From Glycomyces tritici (GTDB lineage Bacteria; Actinomycetota; Actinomycetes; Mycobacteriales; Micromonosporaceae): DNA of 64,000 nucleotides. The translations under genes and the position numbers were made by a program. The DNA lies in NCBI RefSeq assembly GCF_030403505.1, contig NZ_JAUEMJ010000006.1, positions 7,126 to 71,125 on the forward strand. Direction: 5' to 3'. Numbering within the stretch: the stretch's first letter is position 1; the number at the start of each line of letters is the position of its first letter. Of the stretch, positions 7,793 through 44,536 are shown piece after piece. The notes below the pieces were generated by a model. The model saw nothing but the letters and a program-made list of their open reading frames with translations, searched no databases and was not told where the DNA came from.

Positions 7793-7836
7793 GTCGGGTT
7801 GACAGGATTTGAACCTGCGACCCCCTCGTCCCGAAC
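7793..7836. repeat. Left attachment site (attL), tRNA-Pro 3' fragment
   Basis: A 44-bp copy of the tRNA-Pro(CGG) 3' part, identical to 19006-19049, with no 5' half. It marks the left chromosome-element junction. Confidence 0.92.
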
Positions 7837-7918
7837 TATCGGCATGGGGGTCGTTGGGGGCCAACCAAGGTGCATCGCAGCTGGTCAGAGCCAATCCGAG
7901 GTATCCTCGCTCGCTGCG

Positions 7919-7941
7919 GTTGCTGTACTTTGCTGCTGTAC
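7919..7941 (+). promoter_or_regulatory. Candidate left arm-type integrase binding site
   Basis: A 23-base block with two GCTGTA hexamers 11 bp apart matches 19 of 23 positions with 18924-18946 next to attR, in the same orientation. It lies 83 bp inside the left end of the element. Arm-type sites of this spacing are usual for tyrosine integrases; binding is inferred. Confidence 0.5.
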
Positions 7942-8002
7942 TGCGGTCAAGCCGGAGCCATAGGAATAATCCATATTCGGAATGTCAGTACACGCGAGTC
8001 GA

Positions 8003-8458
8003 CTATCTGGTAGATCGATCTGCGCCCAAATCCTTCCGAGCATATTTGCGGAAATCATTTAGGCAGTTGAGTATCACTTCCTGGAAATTGTCCGGATCGC
8101 CGCTGATCGCTTCCGAGATCGTGACAAGGTGTTTGTCTGCACTGTCCGTCACCTGATTCGTCCCTACGAGTCTGATTTGGTCGATCCATGCAGCGCCCCG
8201 CTGAAGTTGATCTTTTGTGACGCGCGCCTTGTCCTTACCATCCCAACCGAATTGGAGATCACGGAGAAATGACGCATACCCCTCATATGCCTCTAGTCGT
8301 GCCTGTCGCAACCACTTCCGGTGTTCGAGGCGCAGCGTCAGGAAGGATGTCACGAACGCCGCCAGCACAAGCGCGATAGCGGCAATGATTGCTGGAGCTA
8401 GCTGGACAATCAACGGTGTCTCAGAGCCTACTTGCACAATGATTGGGGTTTCTTCCAT
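8003..8458 (-). CDS. Single-pass membrane protein, AICE cargo, unknown function
   Basis: A 151-aa protein with a short acidic N-terminus, one membrane helix (about residues 20-42, 'APAIIAAIALVLAAFVTSFLTL') and a soluble helical C-terminal domain containing 'RQARLEAYEGYASFLRDLQFGWDGKD'. The layout recalls actinobacterial hypothetical proteins with an N-terminal anchor and a cytoplasmic helical bundle. It is the first gene inside attL, has the lowest GC in the element and ordinary codon bias is absent, so it looks like recently acquired cargo. The ATG at 8458 follows GGGGAT at a reasonable distance. The function is not known; superinfection exclusion is only one possibility. Confidence 0.65.
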   Translation of the reverse strand: MEETPIIVQVGSETPLIVQLAPAIIAAIALVLAAFVTSFLTLRLEHRKWLRQARLEAYEGYASFLRDLQFGWDGKDKARVTKDQLQRGAAWIDQIRLVGTNQVTDSADKHLVTISEAISGDPDNFQEVILNCLNDFRKYARKDLGADRSTR

Positions 8459-8948
8459 CAGACGATTATCCCCGCGCACAGTCAGTCAGTGTCAATCGCA
8501 TCTTGACGGTCCTTTTGGTTGGCAGAGGGCTCGGTCATAGTTCAGCCCATTACCCAGCTCGCTCTTGACCTCACTGGAGGCCGGGTTCATTGGCCGGGGG
8601 CGGGTGCGCGATACGCTCGCTCGGCGACAGGGCGGGCCCGCAGGGATCGCCCGCTATCCGGCCTGGCCGCGCGCCCGCAGGGGTCCCCGGCCAAGGGTTC
8701 CGGCCGGAACCTTTCTTCCATCCTCAGGGCGTCCTCCGCTTGGCCCGTGGCCGGCCGAGGACCGCCCGCAGCGAAGCGAGGACCGGACCGCAGGCCTGCC
8801 GCGAGGCGCGGCCGCAAGGCCGCCTTGAAGATGTATAGAAAGTTCTCACAGGGCTTCTTGGCCTGGGCTCCGGCCGTAGTGGGCCCGCCAGCGGCGGTGC
8901 GCTGGGGTTCTTCCTCAAAGCAGTTCAGGCGTTATAGTGGCAGCACGT
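8459..8948. other. Non-coding, hairpin-rich GC stretch in the AICE left arm
   Basis: About 490 bases without a credible gene. The segment 8580-8830 is extremely GC-rich and holds several self-complementary blocks: a perfect 16-bp palindrome GGTTCCGGCCGGAACC at 8696-8711 and the hairpin GCGGCC-GCAA-GGCCGC at 8808-8823. Frames that stay open here are Arg/Pro/Gly-rich in every direction, as expected for non-coding GC DNA. Near the right edge, TATAGT (8931-8936) may be the -10 of the HD-domain gene, giving a leaderless or nearly leaderless message. Confidence 0.5.
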
Positions 8949-9503
8949 ATGACTACCTATGATGAAGCTTTCGAGACATCGCGAGCGGCACTCCAAGAGG
9001 CGTTGCCCCGCCGATGGGCACACGTCCAGGCGGTAGGTGCCAAAGCCCTTGCGGTCGGTCCGAAGATCCTTTCCGAGCCGGATGCCGATGCACTCGCTAT
9101 CGCCGCAATCCTGCATGACATCGGTTACGCCCCAAGCATTGTCGACACCGGCTTTCACCCACTGGACGGTGCACGCTGGCTGCAACGTCATGGTTGGGAT
9201 GCTCGCATTGTGAACCTAGTTGCCAACCACTCGTGCGCCTGCCTTGAGGCGGATGAGCGCGATCTTCGGGCAGAGTTGGGTGAGTTCCCGAACGAGAAGA
9301 CCCTCATCACAGACGCACTGTTGTACTGCGACATGACAACCGGTCCTGACGGTCAAGACTTCGAGATTGAGGAACGGCTCGCGGAGATCAAGTCACGCTA
9401 CGGTCCTGAGCACCTGGTGTTCCGGTTCATCTCGCGGGCCGAGCCTTCGCTCATCGACGGGGTGCGGACGGTCCAGCGGGAACTGGGTCATCAGCCGATG
9501 TAG
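8949..9503 (+). CDS. HD-domain phosphohydrolase-like protein
   Basis: A 184-aa protein with an N-terminal HD fold: a first histidine in 'RRWAHVQAVG', the HD doublet in 'IAAILHDIGYAPSI' and a later 'LITDALLYCDMTTG' that supplies the usual distal Asp. HD proteins hydrolyse phosphate esters, often nucleotides, using bound metal. It converges with the Nudix gene, overlapping it by 13 bp at the 3' ends. AICEs often carry an HD protein beside a Nudix protein, so a nucleotide-based control or immunity role is a reasonable guess. A GTG 12 bases upstream is an alternative start; with TATAGT just ahead, the message may be leaderless. Confidence 0.8.
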   Translation: MTTYDEAFETSRAALQEALPRRWAHVQAVGAKALAVGPKILSEPDADALAIAAILHDIGYAPSIVDTGFHPLDGARWLQRHGWDARIVNLVANHSCACLEADERDLRAELGEFPNEKTLITDALLYCDMTTGPDGQDFEIEERLAEIKSRYGPEHLVFRFISRAEPSLIDGVRTVQRELGHQPM

Positions 9504-9961
9504 GGCTCAGCCAGACCCTGGAACCCGTGTTTGATGCGCAGCCTCATTGAGGAATTGATCCTCACTGAGGCTGTTTCTGCTTCGCTGAACCACTGGACCT
9601 TGAGGGATTCCTCGCTGGTTTGGATCTCGCCGCCGATCGGCACAGCACGGAAGCAGAGCGAGAACTGCTGCCGGACTTCGCCATCGCTGTACTCCGAGAG
9701 GTGGCCCGGGTCTGTGTATATCCCGATGAGGCCGGTGATCTCGATGTCGAGACCGGTCTCTTCCTTCGCCTCGCGAACGGCAGTCTGGCTGATCGTCTCA
9801 CCGAAGTCGTGGGCTCCGCCTGGCATCGCCCAATCCTCGTTGTCGCTCCGCTGGATCAACACAATCCGTCCGGCCCCGTCTTCGATGAACGCTGTGGTCG
9901 ACGGAACCACGCTGTTCGGCTCGGGCGCGTTCGGATCGTTGATGTGGTCGACGCGGGTCAT
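9491..9961 (-). CDS. Nudix hydrolase, AICE (Pif-like candidate)
   Basis: A 156-aa Nudix protein with a complete Nudix box: G-x5-E in 'GAHDFGE', then seven residues and 'REAKEETGL'. It should hydrolyse a nucleoside diphosphate linked to another moiety. The ATG at 9961 overlaps the stop of the XRE regulator gene (ATGA), so the two form a leftward operon. In pSAM2 the immunity factor Pif contains a Nudix motif and blocks redundant transfer between element-bearing cells. A similar role is likely by position and class but not proven by sequence. Confidence 0.88.
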   Translation of the reverse strand: MTRVDHINDPNAPEPNSVVPSTTAFIEDGAGRIVLIQRSDNEDWAMPGGAHDFGETISQTAVREAKEETGLDIEITGLIGIYTDPGHLSEYSDGEVRQQFSLCFRAVPIGGEIQTSEESLKVQWFSEAETASVRINSSMRLRIKHGFQGLAEPYIG

Positions 9962-10722
9962 GGGCGCATCGTACCTTGTTGACCTGTCCAGATATTGACC
10001 GAATTTGCGAGGACCCGCTCGAAGCACTCGGTAAAGGTGCGGAACATGCCACCGCCTGGCAGCTCCTTCAGGTGCATGACCGGAGCGTGGGAGGCGTAGC
10101 ACCCGAGGACGTGGGTGTTCACCAGCATCTCGGAGTCACACCAATAGATGCTGTTGTACAAGGTTGTGTCGTGGAACCCGACCCAGATTCCCGGCGTGCC
10201 CTCAAGCTGCTGGTAGAACGGCAACACGGCCTCGATACGGCGCTGCATACCTTTGCCGACGCCTTCCTCCTCGCCGCGGAGCTCGACCGCGGTCGATTTG
10301 GGATCCCCGAGAAGGATCGAGACCTTCACGCCCTCAGCGGCCTTTGCTTTGAGGAGCGGCACCAAGCCAGCATCGCCCTCGGGGAGGAACAGGCCAGCGT
10401 AGGCAAGGACTCCGATGTGCCGCGTCGCTTGCCTGAAGATCCGAGACCACAGCTCCGCTGGGACATCGTTCCGCTTCGCATAGGTGTGCACCAGCTCAGA
10501 CTCACTGACCAGCTTCGCTTTCTGCTCAGGAAGGGCATCAGGCCAGAGGTAGTTCTCGCTCTGCTGCAACGCCAGAGCGACTGCGGCCCGCGTCTTCGCG
10601 TATGGGTTGCGCCCCTTGGTGATCCAGCGTTCGACCGACTTCGGGTCGACTCCGATCGTCTGAGCAAGTTGGGCGGGGGTCATGCCCTGCGCATGGATCG
10701 CGCTCCGGAGCCGTTCGTTCAT
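9958..10722 (-). CDS. XRE-family transcriptional regulator with C-terminal sensor-like domain
   Basis: A 254-aa regulator. Residues 1-60 form a helix-turn-helix ('MTPAQLAQTIGVDPKSVERWIT'). The remaining 190 residues form an alpha/beta domain with 'VKVSILLGDP' and 'HDTTLYNSIYW', of the type called DUF5919 in actinobacterial regulators. The ATG at 10722 has AAGGA 8 bases upstream. It is divergent from the replication-transfer operon and separated from it by a 50-bp palindromic array, so it is the likely master repressor (KorSA-like role) or Pra-like switch of the element. Which of these it is cannot be decided from sequence. Confidence 0.85.
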   Translation of the reverse strand: MNERLRSAIHAQGMTPAQLAQTIGVDPKSVERWITKGRNPYAKTRAAVALALQQSENYLWPDALPEQKAKLVSESELVHTYAKRNDVPAELWSRIFRQATRHIGVLAYAGLFLPEGDAGLVPLLKAKAAEGVKVSILLGDPKSTAVELRGEEEGVGKGMQRRIEAVLPFYQQLEGTPGIWVGFHDTTLYNSIYWCDSEMLVNTHVLGCYASHAPVMHLKELPGGGMFRTFTECFERVLANSVNIWTGQQGTMRP

Positions 10723-10747
10723 ACCGCTGTCCTTCACCTCTGAAGTA

Positions 10748-10797
10748 GGGACGTCTAGGGACGAGTCTAACAGTATTGAGACGTCCTGAGAAGTCCC
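10748..10797. promoter_or_regulatory. Palindromic operator between the AICE regulator and transfer operon
   Basis: A 50-bp imperfect inverted repeat. The left arm GGGACGTCTAGGGACGAGTCT is mirrored by a right arm whose complement reads GGGACTTCTCAGGACGTCTC, with a 9-base centre. Each arm holds two GGAC-type half-sites, so the region could bind two dimers. It lies 26 bp before the XRE gene start and about 110 bp before the rightward operon. Confidence 0.65.
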
Positions 10798-10908
10798 ATG
10801 CGGTGGTGAATGTGTCCTCTTTGAAGCCTCATTCTTGAGTCATCAGCCCGGATCACCTGGGTTGGGGCCCAAGCGGGTCAAGCAAAACGACAAGGAAGAG
10901 GTAGGGCT

Positions 10909-11220
10909 ATGAAGCTCAAGCTGGATGTCTCGGACGTGACTTTCATGGTGTCGCTGGCCCCGGTGGCCAAGGAGTACGACGGCAAGCACCAGACCGACAA
11001 GGACGGTTCGCTGAAGTGGACCACCGAACTCATCGCGCTCGGCTCGTCCGAGGACGAGGGTGCGTCGGTCATCAAGGTCGTCACCACTGGTGAGAAGCCG
11101 AACCTCCCCAAGGGGAAGCCGGTCTCGGTCGTCGACCTGGAAGCGGTCCCGTGGGTCTCCAAGCAGGGCACCCTCGGCACGGCGTACCGGGCCTCTGCGA
11201 TCAATCTCGCCGGTAAGTAG
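10909..11220 (+). CDS. AICE conserved hypothetical protein
   Basis: A 103-aa soluble protein rich in beta-type segments ('MKLKLDVSDVTFMVSLAP', 'SVIKVVTTGEKPNLPKGKPVSVVDLEAVPW'), with no catalytic motif. Short proteins of this appearance commonly open the transfer/replication operon of actinobacterial AICEs and conjugative plasmids. A single-strand-binding-like fold is possible but unsupported. The start has AGGAAGAGG upstream. It is the first gene after the operator region. Confidence 0.7.
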   Translation: MKLKLDVSDVTFMVSLAPVAKEYDGKHQTDKDGSLKWTTELIALGSSEDEGASVIKVVTTGEKPNLPKGKPVSVVDLEAVPWVSKQGTLGTAYRASAINLAGK

Positions 11221-11262
11221 TCACCCTGAGGCTTACGCCTCTTGATCCCGAGAGGATCTGCC

Positions 11263-11571
11263 ATGCACGACTTCCCGATGAACGCCACGTTCGGCGCTCA
11301 CCTCAAAGAGGGTATGGGCCTGCGGTCCAGCGTTCACCACTCCGAATGCGGGGTGCTGACCGTGGGGACCTGGAGAGAGGACAACTGGGAGCTGAGCCTG
11401 TTCGGTTCGCCCGCCAGTCTCCGCAAGCTCGCTGAGGCGCTGCACCAGCTCGCCGACGCGACCGAGCGCGATGTCAACCGTCAACGGACGCTTGACAACG
11501 CTCCGGCAATCCGCCGGTCCAAGTTCGTCCTGGAGGGCGAAGCCACCACCGAAATCAAACTCGCCGCTTAA
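11263..11571 (+). CDS. Hypothetical protein in AICE transfer operon
   Basis: A 102-aa protein of unknown function. It has an amphipathic helical middle ('SPASLRKLAEALHQLADATERDVNRQR') and few hydrophobic stretches, so it is cytoplasmic. The ATG at 11263 is preceded by GAGAGGA. It sits 42 bp after the previous gene and about 106 bp before the membrane protein gene, in the same orientation, so it is probably co-transcribed with the translocase. Confidence 0.65.
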   Translation: MHDFPMNATFGAHLKEGMGLRSSVHHSECGVLTVGTWREDNWELSLFGSPASLRKLAEALHQLADATERDVNRQRTLDNAPAIRRSKFVLEGEATTEIKLAA

Positions 11572-11677
11572 GCGGCACTGGGGAACCGGTCCAAATCCGA
11601 CCAAGAACTCGACCGGCTCCCCGGTTTCCAACAAGCAACCATCCCTTGCCCCCAAGGGGGCGGAAAGGAGTGCTGCC

Positions 11678-12646
11678 ATGCCTCGTAATGGTAGCAACCG
11701 TGCCAGCTCCGGGCGTTCCCGCTCGGGTGTTCGTGCTGGTCAGACCATCATCGATACCTTCGAGATCGACTCGGCGAAGCGCCGGGCCAAGATCGTCGGC
11801 ATCCTCGCTGGCGTCTTCGCTGGCCTGGTCGCCTTCGCGATCGCTCTGACGGTCAAGGATGGCGCTGCGGCGTTCCTCCTGGCGGTCGTCGTCGCCTTCG
11901 CCACCGGCTTCGTCGCCGCTGGCTTGGTGCTGATCTGGCCGGGGCTGCGCATGGCGTGGCACTGGGCCGGAGAGCTGGTCGTCCTGGCCCTGGTGGTCAG
12001 CGTCTGGGCGTTGCTCAACGCTTGGGCGGGACCGCTGGTCGCTCTTGGCGCGACGCTCCTGCTGATCGGTGTGCCGTGGCTGTTCCGCCCGGTGTGCCGG
12101 TTCCTGGTCCGTTGGGCCTGGTGCATGATCGTGCGCCACCGCATCCGTGTCGCCTGCGATGCCTTCATTGAGGGCAAGGGCGTTCGCGGTTCGGTGATGC
12201 CGCTGATCCTGTGGGCTTGTCCCACGGATTCCGGTGAGCGTGTGTGGCTTTGGCTGCGCGGTGACCTCACCTTGGACGATCTGCGGGACCGTCTCACCGA
12301 ACTCGCTTCGGTGTGCTGGGCACACGAGGCATCGGCCGAAATGGCCGGGTCGAAAGCGGCCTACGTGGTCGTGGACATCCGTCGCCGTGACGTCCTCGCT
12401 GAGGGCGTGGCCATGCCAGTCACCGAGATGCTCGAAGGCATCGATCCCGATTCCTACCCGGTCGAGTACCGCCGGGTGGACGACTCCGAAGGCGTCGACC
12501 TGACACCGGAGTCGGTGAACGCCGAACTGGATGCCCTGCTGGGCACCAAGGGCGGTCGCAAACCGCGTCAGCGCAAGGCCGATGACGGCCAGACCACCGC
12601 ACCCGATGAGAACCCGGACGAGGGCGACATGCCCGCCTGGGTCTAA
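11678..12646 (+). CDS. Membrane partner of the FtsK-like translocase
   Basis: A 322-aa protein. After a Ser/Arg-rich N-terminus come four hydrophobic helices (about residues 36-58, 62-85, 92-110 and 114-132), then a soluble domain (about 145-290) with 'MPLILWACPTDSGERVWLWLRGDLTLDDLRDRLTEL', and a charged, disordered tail. It resembles the membrane half of FtsK/Tra proteins, encoded separately from the motor that follows 128 bp downstream. The start is supported by GGAAAGGAG 7 bases before the ATG. It should anchor the DNA pump at the septal or lateral membrane. The split-gene reading is inference from order and topology. Confidence 0.72.
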   Translation: MPRNGSNRASSGRSRSGVRAGQTIIDTFEIDSAKRRAKIVGILAGVFAGLVAFAIALTVKDGAAAFLLAVVVAFATGFVAAGLVLIWPGLRMAWHWAGELVVLALVVSVWALLNAWAGPLVALGATLLLIGVPWLFRPVCRFLVRWAWCMIVRHRIRVACDAFIEGKGVRGSVMPLILWACPTDSGERVWLWLRGDLTLDDLRDRLTELASVCWAHEASAEMAGSKAAYVVVDIRRRDVLAEGVAMPVTEMLEGIDPDSYPVEYRRVDDSEGVDLTPESVNAELDALLGTKGGRKPRQRKADDGQTTAPDENPDEGDMPAWV

Positions 12647-12774
12647 CCCAAAAAGCTCCCCAACTGGGGCTGCTCACGGTGGGAGCCGTGGAAGCCAGAG
12701 AGGCCAAGTACCGGCTCCCACCACCAAAACTCACGCATCGATAGATGCACCGATTTCACTAAGGAGATTGCACG

Positions 12775-13578
12775 ATGAACATCGCACTGGGACCGGTCAT
12801 GTCGATCAAAGACCCCATCTACCTGGGCCGGTCGGCTTCGAACGAGGCCGTCAACGTCACCATGTACGGCAAGAACATGATGCTCAATGGCGAGCCCGGC
12901 TCGGGCAAGTCGGGGCTGATGAACAACATGATCGCGCAGGTGTCACTGATGCCGGACGCGCGAATGCTCGGCTTCGACGCCAAGTTGGTCGAGCTGATGC
13001 CCTGGACCGATGTCATGGACGTGTTCGTGGGCCCGGAAATGCGCAAGGCGCTTCAGACGATGCTGTGGATCCAGAAGCTCATGGACCGCCGCTACGACTG
13101 GATGTCGCGCAACCGGATCCGCAAGCTCGTCCCGTCGCCGGCCGAACCGGCGTGGGTGCTCTTCCTCGATGAGGTCGCGTACTACACCTCGGTCGCGGGA
13201 ACCAAGGTCGAGCAGGAGCTGTTCTCCGCGCTCTTCCGTGACGTGGTTGCCCGGGGACGGGCAGCGGCGATCATCCCGATCATGGGCACGCAGCGTGCCT
13301 CCTTCGACATCCTGCCGACCGCACTGCGCGACCTGTTCGCCTACCGGTGGACCGGCCGCGCGACCACGCCCGGCTCCTCGGATGTCGCCCTCGGGGCCGG
13401 TTGGGCCGAAGCGGGCTACAACGCAATGAGCCTGGACCCCAAGAAGCCCGGGGACTCCTTCCTCCTCGCCGAGGGGAATGCACCGCAACGGATGCGGGCG
13501 GCCTGGATGACCGACGAAGAGATTCAGACTGTCGCGGCCTTCGCTGCGCAGCTTCGGGGCCACAGGGCCTCTGCCTAG
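12775..13578 (+). CDS. FtsK/SpoIIIE-like DNA translocase (Tra)
   Basis: A 267-aa P-loop ATPase with Walker A 'GEPGSGKS' (residues 39-46), Walker B 'LFLDE' (129-133) and the following 'RDVVARGRAAAIIPIMGTQRAS', typical of FtsK-HerA motors. AICEs use such a single protein, related to TraB/TraSA, to move double-stranded DNA between mycelial cells without a type IV apparatus. It lacks the large membrane domain and the gamma domain of chromosomal FtsK; the preceding gene probably supplies membrane anchoring. TAAGGAGATT is an excellent ribosome binding site for the ATG at 12775. A structured intergenic RNA element follows the stop codon. Confidence 0.9.
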   Translation: MNIALGPVMSIKDPIYLGRSASNEAVNVTMYGKNMMLNGEPGSGKSGLMNNMIAQVSLMPDARMLGFDAKLVELMPWTDVMDVFVGPEMRKALQTMLWIQKLMDRRYDWMSRNRIRKLVPSPAEPAWVLFLDEVAYYTSVAGTKVEQELFSALFRDVVARGRAAAIIPIMGTQRASFDILPTALRDLFAYRWTGRATTPGSSDVALGAGWAEAGYNAMSLDPKKPGDSFLLAEGNAPQRMRAAWMTDEEIQTVAAFAAQLRGHRASA

Positions 13579-13581
13579 AGC

Positions 13582-13672
13582 GAGTGCCGTCAGCGCCAAC
13601 AGATGTCAACGAGCAGTTGACGGCACTCCAGGGCGAATGGTTCACCCGGGGTTCGATTCCCCGGCGTCCACG
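13582..13672 (+). ncRNA. Structured element 1: hairpin plus tRNA T-arm-like minihelix
   Basis: Two parts. First, an 11-bp hairpin: GAGTGCCGTCA (13582-13592) pairs with TGACGGCACTC (13618-13628). Its loop side contains a competing GTCAAC/GTTGAC pair. Second, a minihelix: GGGCG (13631-13635) pairs with CGTCC (13665-13669) and encloses CCGGGG-TTCGATT-CCCCGG (13646-13664). The T-arm-like stem stacks directly on the outer stem, as T arm and acceptor do in tRNA, and ends in 'ACG'. There is no D or anticodon arm, so it is not a normal tRNA. A second copy of the architecture lies at 13972-14038. Confidence 0.5.
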
Positions 13673-13759
13673 ACGTAAGGAATCCCAGCACTAATCGCAC
13701 ACGGGCTAGTACTGCGTCCTGCTGATGAGGCATTGATAACAAAGGAAAGAGGGCAAGAA

Positions 13760-13975
13760 ATGAAGCACCTCAAAGTGACGCTCGACGGTGAGGACAAGAA
13801 CGTAAATCACTACGTCACCACTGACGAGAACGCCGCTGCCGTAATTGCGGACTTCAAGGAAGGCGACATGATCGCCATCGACAACCACATCTTCCGAGGT
13901 GACGTGACGGTTAACGATTCGACCACGCTCATCCGGGTGCACCGGATTGTGGAGATCGAGATCAAGAACAGGTAA
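13760..13975 (+). CDS. Small hypothetical AICE protein
   Basis: A 71-aa acidic protein, predicted beta-rich ('MKHLKVTLDGEDKNVNHYV', 'DFKEGDMIAIDNHIFRGDVTVN', 'LIRVHRIVEIEIKNR'), resembling a small beta-barrel. No family is recognised. The ATG at 13760 is preceded by AGAGGGC. GC is low for the genome. It is bracketed by the two tRNA-like minihelix elements; the second begins in its last codons. Confidence 0.6.
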   Translation: MKHLKVTLDGEDKNVNHYVTTDENAAAVIADFKEGDMIAIDNHIFRGDVTVNDSTTLIRVHRIVEIEIKNR

Positions 13976-14038
13976 GCCGTAGCGGCTTACTGGTAGAGCG
14001 ATCGGCAATCTTCGGGGTTCGAGGCCCCGACGCTCACG
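13972..14038 (+). ncRNA. Structured element 2: hairpin plus tRNA T-arm-like minihelix
   Basis: The same architecture as 13582-13672. A perfect 8-bp hairpin GTAAGCCG-TAG-CGGCTTAC (13972-13990) overlaps the stop codon of the upstream gene. It is followed by a minihelix in which GAGCG (13996-14000) pairs with CGCTC (14031-14035) around CGGGG-TTCGAGG-CCCCG (14013-14029), ending in 'ACG'. The TGGTAGAGCG stretch resembles a tRNA D arm, but only 12 bases separate it from the T arm, leaving no room for an anticodon arm. Confidence 0.5.
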
Positions 14039-14078
14039 CAGCAATAACCACGAATGACACAGAGAGGAGGAGTGTGCA

Positions 14079-14438
14079 TTGTTCCGGACCGAATTCGATG
14101 ACCCTGAAGGCATCCGCCACGGCGGATTGCCGACGTTCAACTACCGCTGCGCGCCGGTCGGACTGTACACCCGCCGACAACTCGCCGCTGAAGGTCTTAC
14201 GCCTGGGCGGCAACCCATCGCAGGCCAGATCTTCTGGCGTCGCGGTAACCGAGTCGCCTACCTCTATAGGCGTGACCTGCCCGTGCCCAAGCGCCCGGCT
14301 ACCGACGCCCAACTGCGGGCCCTGATGAAAGCGTGGGTCGCTCTGTCGACCTGCCCGTCATGCCAGACGGAATACGGCTACTACATCCCCAAGCGCTACG
14401 GCGAATGCCTCGACTGCTTCGAAGGCGGCGCGCGATGA
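14079..14438 (+). CDS. RRQRL-type zinc-binding protein, AICE
   Basis: A 119-aa protein with 'YTRRQLAAEGLTPG', which matches the RRQRL-motif family found in Streptomyces integrative elements, and a C-terminal zinc-ribbon made of 'CPSC' and 'CLDC'. The function is unknown; a DNA- or RNA-binding role is likely from the zinc ribbon. The start is a TTG preceded by a strong GAGAGGAGGAG, and no ATG/GTG in frame fits. It overlaps the next gene by 4 bp. Confidence 0.75.
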   Translation: MFRTEFDDPEGIRHGGLPTFNYRCAPVGLYTRRQLAAEGLTPGRQPIAGQIFWRRGNRVAYLYRRDLPVPKRPATDAQLRALMKAWVALSTCPSCQTEYGYYIPKRYGECLDCFEGGAR

Positions 14439-14752
14439 CCGATCTCCTCGCCGCGTTCGCCATCTTCCGCGAAGCGATGCCACTGCATCGCGTCAAGCAG
14501 ATCGACTCGCTTCCCCCGTGGGAGCCCGATCTTTCCCGAATGCGGTTCCTCTGCGTCATCTGCGACGTGCACATGACCGGAACCGAACTCGCCGACGACG
14601 ACAGGCACCTCCTCCTATCCCTGCCCTTCGAGGGCTGGGAAATGCGGGCGTGCGAGGTCTGCGGCGAAGAGACCGTGCCAACGGTCGAGCACTCCAAGAA
14701 ATGCGACTACTGCACCGGCGTGCAGTGGCAGAAGCCAAGGAGCCAGAAATGA
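14435..14752 (+). CDS. Hypothetical Cys-rich protein, AICE
   Basis: A 105-aa protein with three Cys pairs ('CVIC', 'CEVC', 'CDYC'), likely binding zinc. The N-terminal 40 residues are helical and the rest compact. Its ATG overlaps the upstream stop and its stop overlaps the downstream ATG (ATGA at both junctions), so it is translationally coupled within the operon. No family is recognised. Confidence 0.7.
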   Translation: MTDLLAAFAIFREAMPLHRVKQIDSLPPWEPDLSRMRFLCVICDVHMTGTELADDDRHLLLSLPFEGWEMRACEVCGEETVPTVEHSKKCDYCTGVQWQKPRSQK

Positions 14753-15300
14753 AACTCGAAGACGGCGTGCAAACCGTCATCATGCTGTCCATGGGTGTGG
14801 CCGCTGGCGCGGTCTCCTTCACCCACGTCCACGACGCCACCGTCGCGGCCGGTCAGCCCTCCTGGGTCGGCTGGGTCAACGCGGTGACCATCGAACTGAT
14901 GGTGATCGCCCTCGGTCTCGAGGTGCGACGCCGCCGCCGCAACGGCGGCCACAAGGTCAAGTCCGTGATGGCGATGATGATGTTCTTCATCGCCCTCTCG
15001 CTTGGGGCCCAAGTCCTCGACGCTGAACCGACTGTTGTCGGTTGGCTCGCCGCTTCGGCTTCGGCCCTGGGGTTCTTGACCCTGGTCAAGGTCGTACTCT
15101 CGCGGCCCGCTGAGGCGCAGCCGGCCGAATCGCCGGTGGCCTCATTTGCGGAACCGGATTGGAGGGAGTCGGCCCCGGTCGCCTCCTCGGATCCGATCGA
15201 CGTGCCGAGCCTCCAAGCCGAGCGCTCTGCCGTCGCCGCTGAGCCTGCTCAGCCGGACTGGGCCAACGCCTTCGCCAACCTCGGCAACGGGGACCGGTGA
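14749..15300 (+). CDS. DUF2637 (spread-type) membrane protein
   Basis: A 183-aa protein with four hydrophobic segments in the first 115 residues (about 8-28, 41-60, 74-92 and 98-114), then a Pro/Glu/Ala-rich soluble tail. This matches DUF2637 proteins, found in most actinomycete conjugative elements near the spread (spd) genes, which help DNA move through the mycelium after transfer. The link to spreading is by family context; the exact role is unknown. ATGA overlap with the preceding gene and GTGA overlap with the next. Confidence 0.82.
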   Translation: MKLEDGVQTVIMLSMGVAAGAVSFTHVHDATVAAGQPSWVGWVNAVTIELMVIALGLEVRRRRRNGGHKVKSVMAMMMFFIALSLGAQVLDAEPTVVGWLAASASALGFLTLVKVVLSRPAEAQPAESPVASFAEPDWRESAPVASSDPIDVPSLQAERSAVAAEPAQPDWANAFANLGNGDR

Positions 15301-15578
15301 TCGTAATGGTCGAGAACCGCGAGTTCAACGGCTTCGCCCGCCGCATCATCCGCGCCTATGGGCGCCGGGTCGCTGAGGGTGACGTGGACGCACTTCCCGA
15401 GCTCCTTGAGCTCTCAGCCTCGCTTGATGAAGCCATCACTAACGCAGTCAAGGGCCTTCGCGCCTTTGGCTACTCCTGGGCTGAAATCGCCGAACGTATC
15501 GGCATGTCCAGGCAGGCCGCCCAGCAGCGCTGGGGCAAGGCCATCCCCGATCAACGGGATCCCAACTCCGACACCTAG
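15297..15578 (+). CDS. Small helix-turn-helix protein
   Basis: A 93-aa protein with a C-terminal sigma-region-4-like helix-turn-helix ('FGYSWAEIAERIGMSRQAAQQRWGK'). Probably a DNA-binding protein of the AICE replication/transfer operon. The GTG at 15297 overlaps the upstream stop (GTGA), which favours it over the ATG at 15306. Target unknown. Confidence 0.75.
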   Translation: MIVMVENREFNGFARRIIRAYGRRVAEGDVDALPELLELSASLDEAITNAVKGLRAFGYSWAEIAERIGMSRQAAQQRWGKAIPDQRDPNSDT

Positions 15579-15662
15579 CGCCGAGGGCGCGGCCAATCTT
15601 CCACAACCGCCGCGCCCCGGCAACAACCTGCCAACCATCGCGATTGAAAGGCGAAAACCAGT

Positions 15663-15986
15663 ATGCCAACCGAACCCATCACCTTGGCTCACCACTACCG
15701 GCAGCCGATCCTCGGCGACATCACCGGAGCTGCGGGCGAATGCCAGTACCCCGAACCGGTCGACCCGCCCCACTTCAACGGCGAACGCTGCTACCGGGTC
15801 TACAAGTGCCCCGAATGCCACTTCGTGCTGCATGTCAACGGCGGCAACCTCGACCAGCCCGAACCCCTCGACATCGTCTTGGTGGTCTGCGGCTTCTGTT
15901 CGTATCCCGACTTCGTGCGGGACAACCCCTATCCCGAAGACCTGTGCCGTTGCTTCGGCTGGGTCTACCTCGACGACGAGGACTGA
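15663..15986 (+). CDS. Hypothetical Cys-rich protein upstream of the initiator
   Basis: A 107-aa protein with Cys motifs 'CPEC' and 'CGFC' plus a 'CRCF' near the end, suggesting zinc binding. It is rich in Pro, Asp and Tyr and has no membrane segment. AAAGG precedes the ATG. It ends 88 bp before the replication initiator. No family is recognised. Confidence 0.6.
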   Translation: MPTEPITLAHHYRQPILGDITGAAGECQYPEPVDPPHFNGERCYRVYKCPECHFVLHVNGGNLDQPEPLDIVLVVCGFCSYPDFVRDNPYPEDLCRCFGWVYLDDED

Positions 15987-16074
15987 ATAGCGCCCTGTCC
16001 GGCCGCTCCTTTATTACGCACGAGCCGCCGGACGGGGTCACAACACGCCTGCCCGCACTTGGAAGGAGGACACC

Positions 16075-17499
16075 TTGCCTACAAGCACCATTCGACCCGG
16101 CTTCGCCGCCGACATCATCGCCCGGTCCGAGTCGACCGGTTGGGAACCATGGCTCTCGCACGTCGCCGGTGCCGCTGGATGCTCCAACCCGGTACGCCTT
16201 CGCGGCGATCTCCACACCGTCAATGAGTCCACGGGCCAAGTCCTCTCCGCCCGGTCCACCGGCTCCATGCCCGACGGCATCATCTACAAGGCCTGCGGCA
16301 CGCGCCGGGCTTCCCTCTGCCCCACCTGCGCCAAGACCTACCAACACGACGCTTTCCACCTCGTGCGCTCCGGCATGACCGGCGGCAAAGGCGTCCCCGA
16401 GACGGTCACCGCTCATCCGGCACTGTTCGTCACCCTCACCGCCCCCGCCTTCGGACCCGTCCACACGCACACGCTCACCGCCTCAGGCAAAGTCCGGCCC
16501 TGCCGCGCGCGTCGTGACGCCGTGACCTGCCCCCATGACGTCCGACTGGCCTGCCACACCCGGCACGACGAAAGCGCCGGCCAGATCGGCCAGCCGCTGT
16601 GCCTGGACTGCTACGACCATGACGCCCAAGTCGTCTGGAACGTCGCCTCCGGCGAACTGTGGCGGCGCACCCGCATCAACATCGACCGCGGATTGTCGCG
16701 CCTCGCCAAGGCCCACGGCATCGACCCGGCCTCGGTGCGGCTGCGCTACGTCAAGGTCGCGGAGTTCCAGCGTCGCGGTGCCGTTCACTTCCACGCGCTA
16801 ATCCGCCTCGACGGTCGCATGCCCGGCAGTGACGCGATCCTGCCGCCGCCTGCCGCCCTCGACGCCGAGGCCATTGCTGCACTCGTTGCCGATGCCGCCG
16901 CCTCGACCAGCTTCCGCACCGAGGAACACGACAAACGCCCTGAGGGCTGGCTCATCCGCTGGGGTGCGCAAGTCGATGTCCGCCAGGTCGAACTCGGCGA
17001 TGACGAGTTGAGTGAGAACCATGTGGCGGGCTACCTCGCCAAGTACGCCACCAAAGCCACCGAGGACACCGGCCACCTGTCCGGCCGCCTCACCGAGGCC
17101 ACCGTCTCCGTCTACGCCGACCCCGAAGGCGACCACATCGCCCGTCTCATCGCCGCGTGCTGGCGGCTCGGTTCCGAAGGCGGGGAATGGATCCGGCTTC
17201 GTAAGTGGGCGCACATGCTCGGCTTCGGCGGCCACTTCATGACCAAGGCGCGCGCCTGGTCGACCACCTTCGGTGCGCTCAGAGACGCACGCGCGCAATG
17301 GATTCGCTGTCAACACGAGGTTGACACCGATCCGACTGAAACGATCGTCCTCGTCAACTACCTCCGCTATGACGGCACCGGCTGGCACACCGAGGCTGAC
17401 GCCCTCATGGCGTCCTCTGCCGCCGCTCGCGCCCGGGAGCAACGGCAGCTCGCCCGTGAAGCTTTGGATGAACTCACCACTATGGATCGATTGGATTGA
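16075..17499 (+). CDS. Replication initiator, RepSA-type (HUH, rolling circle)
   Basis: A 474-aa initiator. An N-terminal zinc-binding stretch ('CGTRRASLCPTCAKTYQHDAF') precedes the HUH core: a beta strand 'LFVTLTAPAFGPVHTH' and the metal-binding motif 'GAVHFHALIRLDG' (His-Phe-His). The candidate catalytic tyrosine is in 'GYLAKYATKA'. Such proteins nick the double-stranded origin and allow AICEs to replicate after excision. The start is TTG, supported by GGAAGGAGG 6 bases upstream. The stop overlaps or nearly abuts the xis gene, so initiator, xis and int are one transcription unit, as in pSAM2. Confidence 0.9.
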   Translation: MPTSTIRPGFAADIIARSESTGWEPWLSHVAGAAGCSNPVRLRGDLHTVNESTGQVLSARSTGSMPDGIIYKACGTRRASLCPTCAKTYQHDAFHLVRSGMTGGKGVPETVTAHPALFVTLTAPAFGPVHTHTLTASGKVRPCRARRDAVTCPHDVRLACHTRHDESAGQIGQPLCLDCYDHDAQVVWNVASGELWRRTRINIDRGLSRLAKAHGIDPASVRLRYVKVAEFQRRGAVHFHALIRLDGRMPGSDAILPPPAALDAEAIAALVADAAASTSFRTEEHDKRPEGWLIRWGAQVDVRQVELGDDELSENHVAGYLAKYATKATEDTGHLSGRLTEATVSVYADPEGDHIARLIAACWRLGSEGGEWIRLRKWAHMLGFGGHFMTKARAWSTTFGALRDARAQWIRCQHEVDTDPTETIVLVNYLRYDGTGWHTEADALMASSAAARAREQRQLAREALDELTTMDRLD

Positions 17500-17504
17500 T
17501 TGCG

Positions 17505-17717
17505 ATGGAAGGAAGCACGGTACTCAAACCGCGTTGGTACGACACCAGGCAGACCGCCGAGGTCCTCGGCTTCGGCGTCTCGAAGGTCAAGATGCTCATC
17601 GCCTCCGGCGAGCTGCGCTCGGTCAAGGTCGGCGGCCACCGCCGCGTCCTGCCCGAATGGATCGAGGAATACGTCGAGGGCTTCGCCCGCCAGGACGACT
17701 ATGTGGGTGCGGCATGA
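17505..17717 (+). CDS. xis: Excisionase, MerR/BldC-like helix-turn-helix
   Basis: A 70-aa winged-helix DNA-binding protein ('WYDTRQTAEVLGFGVSKVKMLIASGELRSVKVGGHRRV'), of the type that acts as a recombination directionality factor in AICEs. It lies between the initiator and the integrase and overlaps the integrase start (ATGA). A TTG at 17496 would add three residues and overlap the initiator stop; the choice is uncertain. It should bend DNA at the att arms to favour excision. Confidence 0.85.
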   Translation: MEGSTVLKPRWYDTRQTAEVLGFGVSKVKMLIASGELRSVKVGGHRRVLPEWIEEYVEGFARQDDYVGAA

Positions 17718-18922
17718 GCAAGCGGGGCAACGGGGAAGGCTCGATCTACCCACATGGCAACGGGTACGCCGCCTACGTGTGGGTCACGACCCCTGCGGGC
17801 GTGAAGAAGCGCAAGTACGTCTACGGCCCAACCCGTGAGGTGGTCCACGGCAAGTGGCTCGATCTCCACCAGGCCGCCGCGCGCGGTGCTGTCGAGACCA
17901 AGTCCAAGACCGTCGAGCAGTACTTGCACGCCTGGCTCGAAGAGGTCATCAGGCCCAACCGGGAACCGAAGACCTACGACGGGTACGAGCGGTTCATTCG
18001 GCTGCACATCGTGCCGTGGCTCGGTAAGAAGAAGCTCGATCGGCTGTCAGCGCGGGATATCCAGCAGTGGGCGAACAAGCTCGCGACGGTGTGTCAGTGC
18101 TGTCAGCAGGGCGTTGATGAGCTGCGGACGCCGCACAAGTGCTGTGCGAAGGGCAAGTGCTGTCGAAAGGCGTTGTCCGCCAGGTCGATCAGTGACGCTC
18201 GTACGGTGCTGCGCTCGGCGCTGTCGCAGGCGGTCACTGATGAGCTGGTGTCGGTGAACCGGGCCATGCAGATCCGTTTGCCTAGCGGGCGCAAGCGTCG
18301 CAAGAAGTCGTGGGGCACCGATGAGGCTCGGCGGTTCCTCGAACACGTCCGCCCTGATCCGCACTACGCGGCGTACCTGCTGGTCCTCGCGATGGGCCTG
18401 CGCAAAGGCGAAGTCCTCGGCTTGACCTGGGACAGCCTCGACCTCGACGAGGGCGTTCTTGAGCCGCAGTGGCAGCTCCAGCGGGTCATGGGCGAACTGA
18501 TCCACAAGAGGAAGGCCAAGACCGAGGAGTCCGAGAACGCCCTGCCGATGCCTGATCTGTGCGTCAAGGCGCTGCGGGAGCGTCGGGAGCGGCAGCTTCG
18601 GGACCGGGCGAAGGCCGATGTCTGGCATGACTCGGATCTGGTCTTCACCACTCGGTACGGGACGGCGATCGAGCCGCGCAACTTTCACCGGTACTTCGTC
18701 AACCATCTCGAGGCAGCCGGCCTCCCCCGGATCTCGGTGCACGACGCCCGGCGGACCTGTAGCTCGCTGCTGGTGGACCTCGACGTTCACCCTCGCGTGA
18801 TCATGGCGATCATGCGGCACTCGGACTTCAAGATGACCATGGAGGTCTACGCGCAGGCCTCTGACAAGGCCACCAGGGAGGCGCTGCGGAAGCTGAGCGA
18901 GAGTTTTGAGTCCGAGGACTAG
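17714..18922 (+). CDS. int: Site-specific tyrosine integrase of the AICE
   Basis: A 402-aa tyrosine recombinase. The N-terminal arm-binding domain (about 1-60) is followed by a core-binding SAM-like domain (65-185) and the catalytic domain (200-390), with Arg230 ('GLRKGEVLGL'), His343 and Arg346 ('HDARRT'), His369 ('MRHSDF') and the nucleophile Tyr379 ('MEVYAQ'). The core-binding domain has a Cys-rich insert at residues 127-150 ('CQCC', 'CC', 'CC') that could bind zinc; similar inserts occur in other actinobacterial integrases. It ends 83 bp from attR. Canonical enzymes have His or Lys after the 'HxxR' Arg, here Arg347; this is tolerated in the family. Confidence 0.95.
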   Translation: MSKRGNGEGSIYPHGNGYAAYVWVTTPAGVKKRKYVYGPTREVVHGKWLDLHQAAARGAVETKSKTVEQYLHAWLEEVIRPNREPKTYDGYERFIRLHIVPWLGKKKLDRLSARDIQQWANKLATVCQCCQQGVDELRTPHKCCAKGKCCRKALSARSISDARTVLRSALSQAVTDELVSVNRAMQIRLPSGRKRRKKSWGTDEARRFLEHVRPDPHYAAYLLVLAMGLRKGEVLGLTWDSLDLDEGVLEPQWQLQRVMGELIHKRKAKTEESENALPMPDLCVKALRERRERQLRDRAKADVWHDSDLVFTTRYGTAIEPRNFHRYFVNHLEAAGLPRISVHDARRTCSSLLVDLDVHPRVIMAIMRHSDFKMTMEVYAQASDKATREALRKLSESFESED

Positions 18923-18923
18923 C

Positions 18924-18946
18924 GTTGCTGTAAATCGCTGCTGTAG
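18924..18946 (+). promoter_or_regulatory. Candidate right arm-type integrase binding site
   Basis: Two GCTGTA hexamers 11 bp apart, starting just after the integrase stop; 19 of 23 positions match 7919-7941 near attL. The same block in the relic at 6541-6706 has decayed to GCCGCA hexamers. Confidence 0.5.
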
Positions 18947-18952
18947 ACACAG

Positions 18953-18990
18953 TCAGGGCCGGGATCCCGAAGATGGGAGACCGGCCCTGA
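18953..18990 (+). terminator. Hairpin after the integrase gene
   Basis: A perfect 10-bp stem TCAGGGCCGG/CCGGCCCTGA encloses 18 bases. It lies between int and attR, and is conserved in the fossil copy at 6642-6677. It may terminate int or take part in the att complex. Confidence 0.6.
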
Positions 18991-19005
18991 ACTGCTGTTT
19001 CATCT

Positions 19006-19049
19006 GTCGGGTTGACAGGATTTGAACCTGCGACCCCCTCGTCCCGAAC
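19006..19049. repeat. Right attachment site (attR), within tRNA-Pro
   Basis: The 44-bp copy identical to 7793-7836. It begins in the tRNA-Pro anticodon loop and ends at the 3' terminus, so integration restores a full tRNA gene. Confidence 0.92.
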
Positions 19050-19080
19050 GAGGTGCGCTACCAAGCTGCGCCACAACCCG
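19007..19080 (-). tRNA. tRNA-Pro (CGG)
   Basis: A 74-nt cloverleaf. The acceptor CGGGTTG pairs with CAACCCG, followed by discriminator A. The D arm has GCGCAGCTTGGTAGCGC. The anticodon stem CCTCG/CGAGG holds the loop TTCGGGA with anticodon CGG. The T arm is CAGGTTCAAATCCTG. CCA is not encoded. Its 3' 43 bases belong to attR and its own terminator now lies 11 kb away beyond attL, so transcription must end elsewhere, perhaps at the hairpin 18953-18990. Confidence 0.96.
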
Positions 19081-43276: not shown

Positions 43277-44536
43277 TTACCAGGTCACCGGCAGTTCGGC
43301 GACGCCGTAGAAGCTCTGCCCGGTCACCAGCGGCACCTCCGCGGCGGGAACGGCCAGCCGCAGGCCCGGGAACCGCTCGATGAGCCCGGCGAACGCGATG
43401 CGCATCTCCATGCGCGCCAGCTGCTGCCCCAGGCACTGGTGCACGCCGTGCCCGAACGTCAAGTGTCCCTTGGCGTCCCCGGTCACGTCCAGCTTGTCGG
43501 GCTCGATGAAGTGCGCCTCGTCCCGGTTCGCGGTCTGGACGGACACCGTGACGTACTCGCGGGCCTTGATCAGGTGCCCCTCGAACTCCATGTCCTCCTT
43601 CACCTGCCGAATGAGTCCGGTGTGGATGATCGTGAGGTAGCGCAGCAGCTCCTCGACGCCGCCGGCCATCAGCTCGGGCCGCGCGCGCAGCAGCTCCCAC
43701 TGGTCCCGGTTCTCCAGGAGCGCCATGGTGCCCAGGGCGAGCATCTTCGCGGTCGTCTCGTGCCCCGCGACGAGCAGCAGGATCGCCATGCCCGCCACCT
43801 CGTTGTCGTCGAGCTCCGCATCGGCGGCGAGGTCGGAGAGCAGGTCGTCCGTGGGGTTCGCCCGCTTGGCCGCGACCAGCTCGCCGAGAAATGCGAAGAG
43901 GTTCAGTATCGCGGCCTGCTTGCCCTCGCCGGTCTCGTCGGTGGTGAAGATCGCCCGGCTGTCGGCTTCGAAGCGTTCGCGCTGGTCGTAGGGGACGCCG
44001 AGCAGTTCGCAGATCATCATGGCGGGCACGGGGACCGCGAAGTCGGCGACGAGGTCGGCGGGTCTGGGCCCGGCGGCGAGGGCGTCGAGGCGGTCCTGGA
44101 CGTGCGCGGCGATGCGCGGTTCGAGCTGCTTCATGCGCTTGACGGTGAACACGCCGGTGAGTTTGCGGCGCAGGCGGGTGTGGTCGGGCGGGTCCATCTC
44201 GATGAACATGCCGGGGGTGAGCGGGAAGTCGCCTTCGAAGTCGAGGTAGCCCTCGAGGCCGGGCATCGGGATCGGCACCTGCGCCGGGCTGCCGAGCGTG
44301 GAGCTGAACCGGGTGTCGGCCAGGACCTTGCGGGCGAGGCGGTGGCTGGTGACGAGCCAGCCCAGGCGGCCCTCGGGGTAGTAGCGCATCCGCCGCATCT
44401 CGGACCCGCGGTGCAGGGCCATGACGGCGGCGGGCGGGTCGAACGGGTGGTCGCGTTCGAGTGGGATGCCGTAGGGCACCGCCGCTTCGGTGCCGTCGGG
44501 AGTGCTGGTTTCGGGAGTTCTGTCGGGTGCTGACAC
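43277..44536 (-). CDS. Cytochrome P450, copy 1
   Basis: A 419-aa bacterial class I P450. The I-helix oxygen-binding motif 'LLLVAGHETTAKML', the K-helix 'ELLRYLTI' and the heme-binding loop 'FGHGVHQCLGQQLARMEM' are all intact. The nearest-looking families are CYP105/CYP107-like, but no substrate can be read. It is paired with the ferredoxin just downstream. A striking AT-rich palindrome (44570-44616) lies upstream of its start. A second P450 with the same general architecture sits at 48262-49479. Confidence 0.95.
   Translation of the reverse strand: MSAPDRTPETSTPDGTEAAVPYGIPLERDHPFDPPAAVMALHRGSEMRRMRYYPEGRLGWLVTSHRLARKVLADTRFSSTLGSPAQVPIPMPGLEGYLDFEGDFPLTPGMFIEMDPPDHTRLRRKLTGVFTVKRMKQLEPRIAAHVQDRLDALAAGPRPADLVADFAVPVPAMMICELLGVPYDQRERFEADSRAIFTTDETGEGKQAAILNLFAFLGELVAAKRANPTDDLLSDLAADAELDDNEVAGMAILLLVAGHETTAKMLALGTMALLENRDQWELLRARPELMAGGVEELLRYLTIIHTGLIRQVKEDMEFEGHLIKAREYVTVSVQTANRDEAHFIEPDKLDVTGDAKGHLTFGHGVHQCLGQQLARMEMRIAFAGLIERFPGLRLAVPAAEVPLVTGQSFYGVAELPVTW

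Follow-up and report, generated by a model that had tools for sequence, protein, structure and literature searches.

A small tRNA-elbow-like RNA element repeated between genes of actinobacterial phages and of a Glycomyces AICE, and its possible part in the cutting of messages

In mitochondria, tRNA-shaped structures standing between genes direct the cutting of polycistronic transcripts, an arrangement known as tRNA punctuation that makes use of working tRNAs, and the tRNA-like domain of tmRNA has a D loop but no proper D stem. Also close in kind are mascRNA and menRNA (RF01684), found in MALAT1 and MEN-beta. These are tRNA-like elements inside longer transcripts, in which a small D loop docks two of its G on the T-loop and a stem is kept in the place of the anticodon arm; they are processed by RNase P and RNase Z, and the elbow is held to explain their recognition by both enzymes (PMC11693755, sections available). 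Bacterial RNase P RNA also cuts hairpins made of an acceptor stem, a T-stem and a T-loop, and certain phage RNAs and mRNAs are substrates of RNase P, among them M3 RNA, C4 RNA and T4 gene 32 mRNA (PMC11143913, sections available). For RNase Z, which clamps the elbow, CCA is an antideterminant (PMC4919913, sections available).

The two elements studied here lie in a window of 64,000 nucleotides of Glycomyces tritici (contig NZ_JAUEMJ010000006.1), within an AICE that spans 7793..19049 and is bounded by 44-nt direct repeats of tRNA-Pro sequence (7793-7836 and 19006-19049), the tRNA-Pro itself lying at 19006-19080. The features of a pSAM2-type AICE are present, namely a RepSA gene (16075-17499, E 2.7e-147), a tyrosine integrase (ORF ending at 18922, E 2.9e-17), an FtsK-like gene and integration in a tRNA gene. 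The FtsK/SpoIIIE (TraB-like) gene (12775..13578, forward strand; PF01580, E 1.1e-10) is located upstream of the first minihelix, and a 71-aa gene (13760..13975, forward strand), which matched no Pfam family above cut-off and no PHROG at E 0.001, is located between the two minihelices. A scan of genome contigs gave two related loci, L001 of Glycomyces algeriensis and L002 of Glycomyces niveus; the FtsK protein of the window is 100% identical over 267 aa to that of G. algeriensis DSM 44727 and 67% identical to that of G. niveus L002.

Both elements were read directly and rechecked in the window sequence, on the forward strand. Hairpin 1 (11 bp, 13582..13628) stands upstream of minihelix 1 (13631..13669), which consists of GGGCG, a 10-nt bulge (AATGGTTCAC), CCGGGG TTCGATT CCCCGG and CGTCC, and thus of a 5-bp outer stem, a D-like bulge with G18G19, a 6-bp T-stem and the T-loop TTCGATT; R73 (A) and C74 follow at 13670..13671, with A C G occupying 13670-13672. 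Hairpin 2 (8 bp, 13972..13990) overlaps the stop codon TAA of the 71-aa gene (13973-13975) and stands upstream of minihelix 2 (13996..14035), consisting of GAGCG, an 11-nt bulge (ATCGGCAATCT), TCGGGG TTCGAGG CCCCGA and CGCTC; here too the outer stem has 5 bp, the bulge is D-like (11 nt), the T-stem has 6 bp and the T-loop is TTCGAGG, and R73 (A) and C74 lie at 14036..14037, with A C G occupying 14036-14038. Both elements thus show the 5+6 bp stack, the bulge with G18G19, the TTCRA T-loop and R73-C74 by which the family described below is defined. The clear hairpins of the window are both upstream of the minihelices, and element 2 has no obvious downstream hairpin.

Neither element was reported by ARAGORN or, at the gathering score, by Rfam, the three tRNAs of the window all being elsewhere, and no anticodon arm that would complete a cloverleaf is present in either. 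The covariance model R1, built from 25 copies, scored minihelix 1 at 54.0 bits and minihelix 2 at 59.2 bits, both being among its training sequences. A descriptor, drawn up once the family had been recognised, asked for 6/6 T-stem pairs, 5/5 outer pairs, GG at bulge positions 4-5 and an R followed by C behind the stem; it matched twice in the real window and not once in 300 dinucleotide-Markov copies. By energy, element 2 retains the outer stem and prefers a different inner stem in its minimum-energy fold, and the centroid fold of element 1 leaves the outer stem open; the fold given above is nevertheless preferred, since tertiary contacts have no place in energy models and the question is decided by comparison of the copies. 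Alanine identity (G3-U70) was discarded as a general trait: element 1 has G-U there, but so do only 3/25 copies in the first alignment.

In the AICE of G. niveus, both hairpins and both minihelices are kept in the same places. The two stems of minihelix 1 are identical in the two species, whereas bulge bases and the hairpin loop differ; hairpin 1 has a shorter loop in G. niveus and a 10-bp stem, with one T-A changed to T-G. In minihelix 2, a base change in the bulge turns a U-G contact into C-G.

The element is not specific to AICEs, and recurs in the intergenic spaces of Mycobacterium, Streptomyces and Gordonia phages and in prophage-like and other mobile-element-like loci. When a 541-nt stretch of the window was searched by blastn, it matched Mycobacterium phage Predator (E 4e-3) and Streptomyces Camvirus phages (E 0.2) in two pieces, one per minihelix with a small gene between; these matches are weak alone, and the intergenic spaces of Predator and of the Camvirus phages hold many successive copies. 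Searched against 50,697 phage records at E up to 10, a 43-nt consensus gave matches in 248, and in 140 of these the match covered 80% of the query or more. The names Streptomyces (115), Mycobacterium (58), Halorubrum (21) and Gordonia (17) are among the matched records, and annotated tRNA genes and haloviruses among the weaker matches. Plasmids gave 8 weak consensus matches in 72,556 records, none of which covered 80%, and blastn of the window stretch likewise gave no plasmid match of 80% coverage. Model R1 found 114 matches at E up to 0.1, many of them clustered, in 87 sources (the window and L001-L086, leaving aside L087-L126), and 47 in six annotated phage stretches; copies within one phage and in related phages are kin, so that such counts are not independent. 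Among whole genomes, a match at E up to 0.01 was found in at least 10/296 of the class and at least 5/61 of the family of G. algeriensis, itself counted, both being lower bounds because 21 or 102 first-look candidates were scored out of thousands per genome.

The surroundings of the genomic matches, with genes of L184-L187 and L202-L205 chosen by our own codon-composition rule, include a terminase gene (L185) and portal and primase genes (L186). Two further loci carry arrays among very small genes, with 11 full and 1 partial minihelix matches in 3.2 kb of L202 (6636-9815) and 7 matches in L204 (8791-10988). Such arrays adjoin mutually related proteins of 723-729 aa (34% identity between L202 and L204, 33% between L205 and L204), those of L202 and L204 having 723-725 aa, and the protein beside the L204 array has a sub-threshold FtsK match (18.2 bits against a cut-off of 24). 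L202 and L204 could perhaps represent an undescribed type of mobile element.

Among the first 25 copies, RNAalifold gave 11 pairs, 7 with compensatory changes. The larger sample of 139 R1 matches came from 49 sources mostly picked for having hits, and has no bearing on prevalence; its 121 distinct rows were paired in 98.9% of cells, with double changes in 10/11 pairs, and showed a covariation of 0.679 against 0.157 when shuffled and at most 0.111 when slid, in an alignment fitted to model R1. Removal of identical cores left 118 copies, and to avoid alignment freedom we used the 101 of these whose bulge has 11 nt and whose stack has 11 bp, since they can be aligned ungapped. Mutual information among the positions left unpaired by the model pointed in this set to further contacts: a D pair that joins bulge positions 2 and 8 and so closes a D loop of 5 nt containing G18G19, and a pseudoknot in which bulge positions 9 and 10 pair with T-loop positions 60 and 59. 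With these contacts included, 99.1% of 1414 cells over 14 pairs are paired and 13/14 pairs show double changes, for a covariation of 0.653, compared with 0.146 after shuffling and no more than 0.123 after sliding; the D pair is missing in 3 of the 101 copies, and the two pseudoknot pairs are missing in 1 and in 3. Element 2 has all three contacts (D pair U-A, pseudoknot pairs U-G and C-G). Element 1, with its 10-nt bulge, has an A-U D pair and one of the two pseudoknot pairs, but its L002 counterpart has both; in this bulge class the pseudoknot does not fit cleanly.

The contact between positions 18 and 55 follows a strict rule in the ungapped set, being G-T in 95/101 copies and A-G in 6/101, the six in six different loci, and never mixed, and G19-C56 is found in 101/101. 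A pattern that left the outer stem free was matched at 131 sites in 120 IMG/VR loci; among the 76 sites outside ARAGORN tRNAs, 42 had 5/5 outer pairs, compared with 5.0 on average and 10 at most in the shuffled control. Four scans, whose patterns fix CA after position 19, examined 105 loci for G18-T55 and 120 for each other combination. Among the non-tRNA matches listed, R73-C74 minihelices made up 22/66 for G18-T55 and 29/119 for A18-G55, several of the latter being identical copies, and 0/119 and 0/77 for the mixed combinations G18-G55 and A18-T55. Without the R73-C74 condition, the numbers among the matches listed were 24, 34, 1 and 2 (G18-T55, A18-G55, G18-G55, A18-T55), against partner-shuffle means of 1.3, 4.0, 0.1 and 0.6. 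Already known loci accounted for 6/22 and 4/29 of the R73-C74 minihelices, including three of the six A-G copies that gave the rule, and new loci for 16 and 25. In the new distinct R73-C74 cores, a set that counts distinct cores and retains any ARAGORN tRNAs, the D pair and both pseudoknot pairs were present in 50/50, against 16/134 of the pattern matches that were not minihelices; for the 9-60 pair this is a test of one side alone (A in 50/50), the patterns having fixed T60.

The 18-55 covariation, G19-C56 and the pattern scans point to docking of the T-loop on G18 and G19, as in the elbow of tRNA. Since positions 59 and 60 are flipped out in canonical tRNA (PMC7912444, sections available), the pairing of the linker with the T-loop is a departure from tRNA. 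Together, the D hairpin with G18G19, the pseudoknot, the 18-55 covariation and the scan results indicate, with near certainty at the level of comparative sequence analysis, a minimal mimic of the tRNA elbow of about 42 nt. To our knowledge it would be the smallest elbow-forming tRNA mimic known. The helical stack has 11 bp in 110/118 copies, 12 in 7 and 10 in 1, compared with 12 (7+5) in tRNA, so that for an enzyme that measures distance the minihelix would usually be one pair off. Gordonia phage Cafasso (L142, 36829-40396) has five copies with a stack of 6+6 bp, 12 bp as in tRNA, of which R1 scores three low and misses two at E 0.1.

The original prediction had described two elements of one plan in the AICE, each copying the acceptor/T-arm half of a tRNA without D or anticodon arm and under selection for structure, and had made the claim depend on structural conservation in related AICEs. 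Positions and plan were borne out to the base, and the acceptor/T-arm mimicry and the missing anticodon arm stand; the missing D arm does not, as a one-pair D hairpin is found whose G18G19 covaries with the T-loop. Selection on structure is supported by the double changes and near-complete pairing in the ungapped set, and the retention of both elements in G. niveus leaves the claim unrefuted.

Comparison with described RNAs places the element as a variant of tRNA-like structures. No Rfam family reaches its gathering score at the window elements or in four phage loci (L003-L006), where ten sub-threshold matches were found, seven of them to mascRNA-menRNA (best 26.3 bits, E 0.18; gathering score 42.5). 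The end signals of the minihelix appear compatible with processing of the mascRNA kind, but at about 42 nt, with one D pair, a pseudoknot, many copies per genome and nothing in the place of the anticodon arm, it differs from mascRNA. One phage copy matched the tmRNA domain (RF00023) with the lowest E of this weak list (21 bits, E 6.7e-5), under the gathering score of 47, and the 42-nt element has neither an mRNA-like part nor a tag. With tRNA (RF00005) and the minihelix model substrates of RNase P it shares the TTCRA T-loop, G18G19, R73-C74 and the stacked acceptor and T stems, but unlike tRNA, including the working tRNAs of mitochondrial punctuation, it has no anticodon arm, and it has one D pair and usually an 11-bp stack. 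M3 RNA, C4 RNA and T4 gene 32 mRNA are single substrates, whereas here a dispersed, covarying family with an apparent tertiary elbow is seen. No description of such elements was found in the literature covered, which included the available parts of PMC2864571 and of the halovirus HF2 paper PMC8707807, and none of the A18-G55 contact under a restrictive query. As many journals fall outside this coverage, it is weak evidence that the architecture (one D pair, pseudoknot, G18-U55/A18-G55 rule) and its repeated intergenic use by phages are undescribed.

Placement was counted for 36 of the 47 R1 matches, in the stretches of Predator, Send513, Endor2 and Sujidade, apart from nine rows of L142, one of L143 and a weak row of L138 at 18151. 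Of these copies, 33 have no overlap with an annotated gene, a position shared by 3.7-8.8% of 40-mers, and three overlap one; the neighbouring genes are on the same strand as the copy in all 36. A median of 9 nt separates the copies from the stop codon before them, with 29/35 between 5 and 19, and the distance to the next annotated start a median of 44.5 nt, with 29/36 between 29 and 58. A hairpin of at least 5 bp beginning no more than 8 nt after R73 was found in 68/118 copies (base-shuffled mean 9.3, maximum 20), starting 2-4 nt after R73 in 56 of the 68. The 30 nt upstream are also enriched in hairpins (50/118 against a shuffled mean of 12.8), and since 50/118 copies have no downstream hairpin by the same definition, the downstream hairpin is not a unique partner of the minihelix.

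The deposited annotation of Streptomyces phage Endor2 (L140) places a tRNA-Arg at 44378-44460, overlapping a minihelix copy, and other phage tRNA annotations may be such elements.

The ends of the element were compared with 45 host tRNA genes reported by ARAGORN in stretches L144-L183 of G. algeriensis. Position 73 is A in 102, G in 12 and C in 4 of 118 copies, and position 74 is C in 114; all 45 tRNA genes have C74, including the 22/22 without an encoded CCA, and C74 may therefore be a shared habit of tRNA genes and not the sign of one enzyme. Encoded CCA is found in 1/118 copies and 5/50 of the new cores, compared with 23/45 host tRNA genes. At position 75 the copies have T (57), G (49), A (10) or C (2), with C75 in 6 of the 50 new cores, and the CCA-less host genes have A (12), G (5), C (3) or T (1), with one unread; ten of these 22 genes read CAG. 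The minihelix end thus looks like that of the CCA-less tRNA genes of the host, although T and G are favoured over A at position 75. On the other side of the helix, the preceding base is A in 79, C in 23, G in 15 and T in 1 of 118 copies, and T in 4 of the 50 new cores, whereas T precedes 13/45 host tRNA genes. U(-1) is the usual preference of RNase P, and the scarcity of T before the helix counts against cutting by this enzyme.

The fold, its covariation, the sense placement between genes and R73-C74 all emerge from comparison of sequences, and the R73-C74 end with scarce CCA, as in CCA-less tRNA genes of the host, points to cutting by RNase Z or RNase P in the manner of tRNA punctuation. On this basis we lean, without great confidence, towards the reading that the element marks sites at which messages are cut and their ends protected, which would insulate neighbouring genes. 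The element would be transcribed within the operon RNA. Its fold is that of a minimal top half of a tRNA, in which the acceptor-like stem (5 bp) and the T-stem (6 bp) are stacked to make 11 bp below a 7-nt T-loop. The linker forms a one-pair D hairpin that offers G18 and G19 to the T-loop, and then pairs two bases with positions 59-60. With its elbow at a fixed distance from the R73-C74 end, the element may be mistaken by host enzymes for a pre-tRNA that lacks CCA. RNase Z would then cut after R73 and/or RNase P before G1, and the polycistronic message would be split between genes. The upstream message would then have a compact tRNA-like 3' end, or end just past its stop codon, and the downstream message, for many phage copies, would begin 2-4 nt ahead of a stable hairpin; both ends would be resistant to exonucleases, allowing separate expression and decay of the genes. 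Processing by RNase P and RNase Z between operon genes had been among the roles proposed originally, and by this reasoning it may well take place; the abundance of copies in phages leaves an RNA regulator of transfer unsupported as a general role.

A fuller version, which we regard as doubtful though worth stating, is that this is an undescribed RNA family, widespread in actinobacterial phages and conjugative elements, that imitates pre-tRNA where one gene gives way to the next and so divides polycistronic messages into units with ends of their own. After cleavage by RNase Z and addition of CCA, phage mRNAs would carry tRNA-like 3' ends with a CCA tail, and the downstream hairpin would cap the next message, amounting to a tRNA punctuation driven by host enzymes without tRNAs.

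The intergenic position on the sense strand, mostly close after stop codons, would also suit an element that is never cut, in which the pseudoknotted tRNA-like fold is a roadblock that halts PNPase coming from the 3' side and RNase J coming from the 5' side, both exonucleases, and thereby stabilises the cistron next to it. The enrichment of hairpins on both sides of the minihelix and a linker/T-loop pseudoknot going beyond the ordinary tRNA elbow are in keeping with such a role, but a roadblock would have no need of the exact elbow (18-55, 19-56), of R73-C74 or of the scarcity of CCA, which are signals of tRNA processing, and we consider it unlikely. Slightly less likely again is a binding platform whose elbow is held by the L1 stalk of the ribosome, EF-Tu, a T-box-like RNA or a phage protein, controlling the downstream gene, or whose excised copies are trans decoys of host factors that act on tRNA. 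The strong constraint on the elbow, the many copies per phage and the regular distance to the next annotated start agree with this proposal, while the even distance from the preceding stop codon speaks for a role in cis within the message.

Decayed tRNA genes, att-site remnants or sites acting as DNA are brought to mind by the position of the window AICE in a tRNA gene and by the TraB-like gene upstream of element 1; R4-like phages have repressor stoperators, and clt consists of TraB-binding repeats. All of these are very improbable. The compensatory changes in 13/14 pairs and the 18-55 rule are not expected of them and rule out DNA-binding repeats of the stoperator or clt type, and an origin as att site or decayed tRNA is ruled out by the covariation and the copy number; the elements are, by eye, unlike the att-site tRNA-Pro, and their orientation is sense throughout.

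If the cutting model is true, it would explain how the small genes of long phage operons come to be expressed separately. The element would be a new structured-RNA family, in spaces that the actinophage records examined leave unannotated or, once, cover with a tRNA gene, and its natural second solution of the 18-55 contact could serve to probe the true needs of RNase P and RNase Z. A possible relative in viruses of haloarchaea would extend the family across domains. In haloarchaeal tailed viruses (L206 594-638, and L207-L213) a similar T-arm minihelix followed by a hairpin stands before a gene, and the stem of the hairpin varies with its pairing kept; because the stems of the minihelix itself show no variation in the 8 aligned records and position 73 is C, this structure is only a lead.

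Two further observations concern the AICE. Between the 322-aa gene and the FtsK gene, the window has at 12678-12726 an 11-bp stem (GGTGGGAGCCG/CGGCTCCCACC) followed by ACCA, and the stretch around it (12644-12740) folds with a z of -3.46. At the same place L002 has, by eye, a 10-bp hairpin of different sequence that likewise precedes ACCA and that MAFFT does not align with the first; the stem and ACCA are perhaps a third tRNA-end-like signal. After minihelix 1, the untranslated positions 13670-13736 are identical to G. niveus in 65/67 bases although the FtsK protein is only 67% identical, and by eye they contain GACGTA..TGCGTC together with crossing CCC/GGG and ACTA/TAGT complementarities that would form a pseudoknot.
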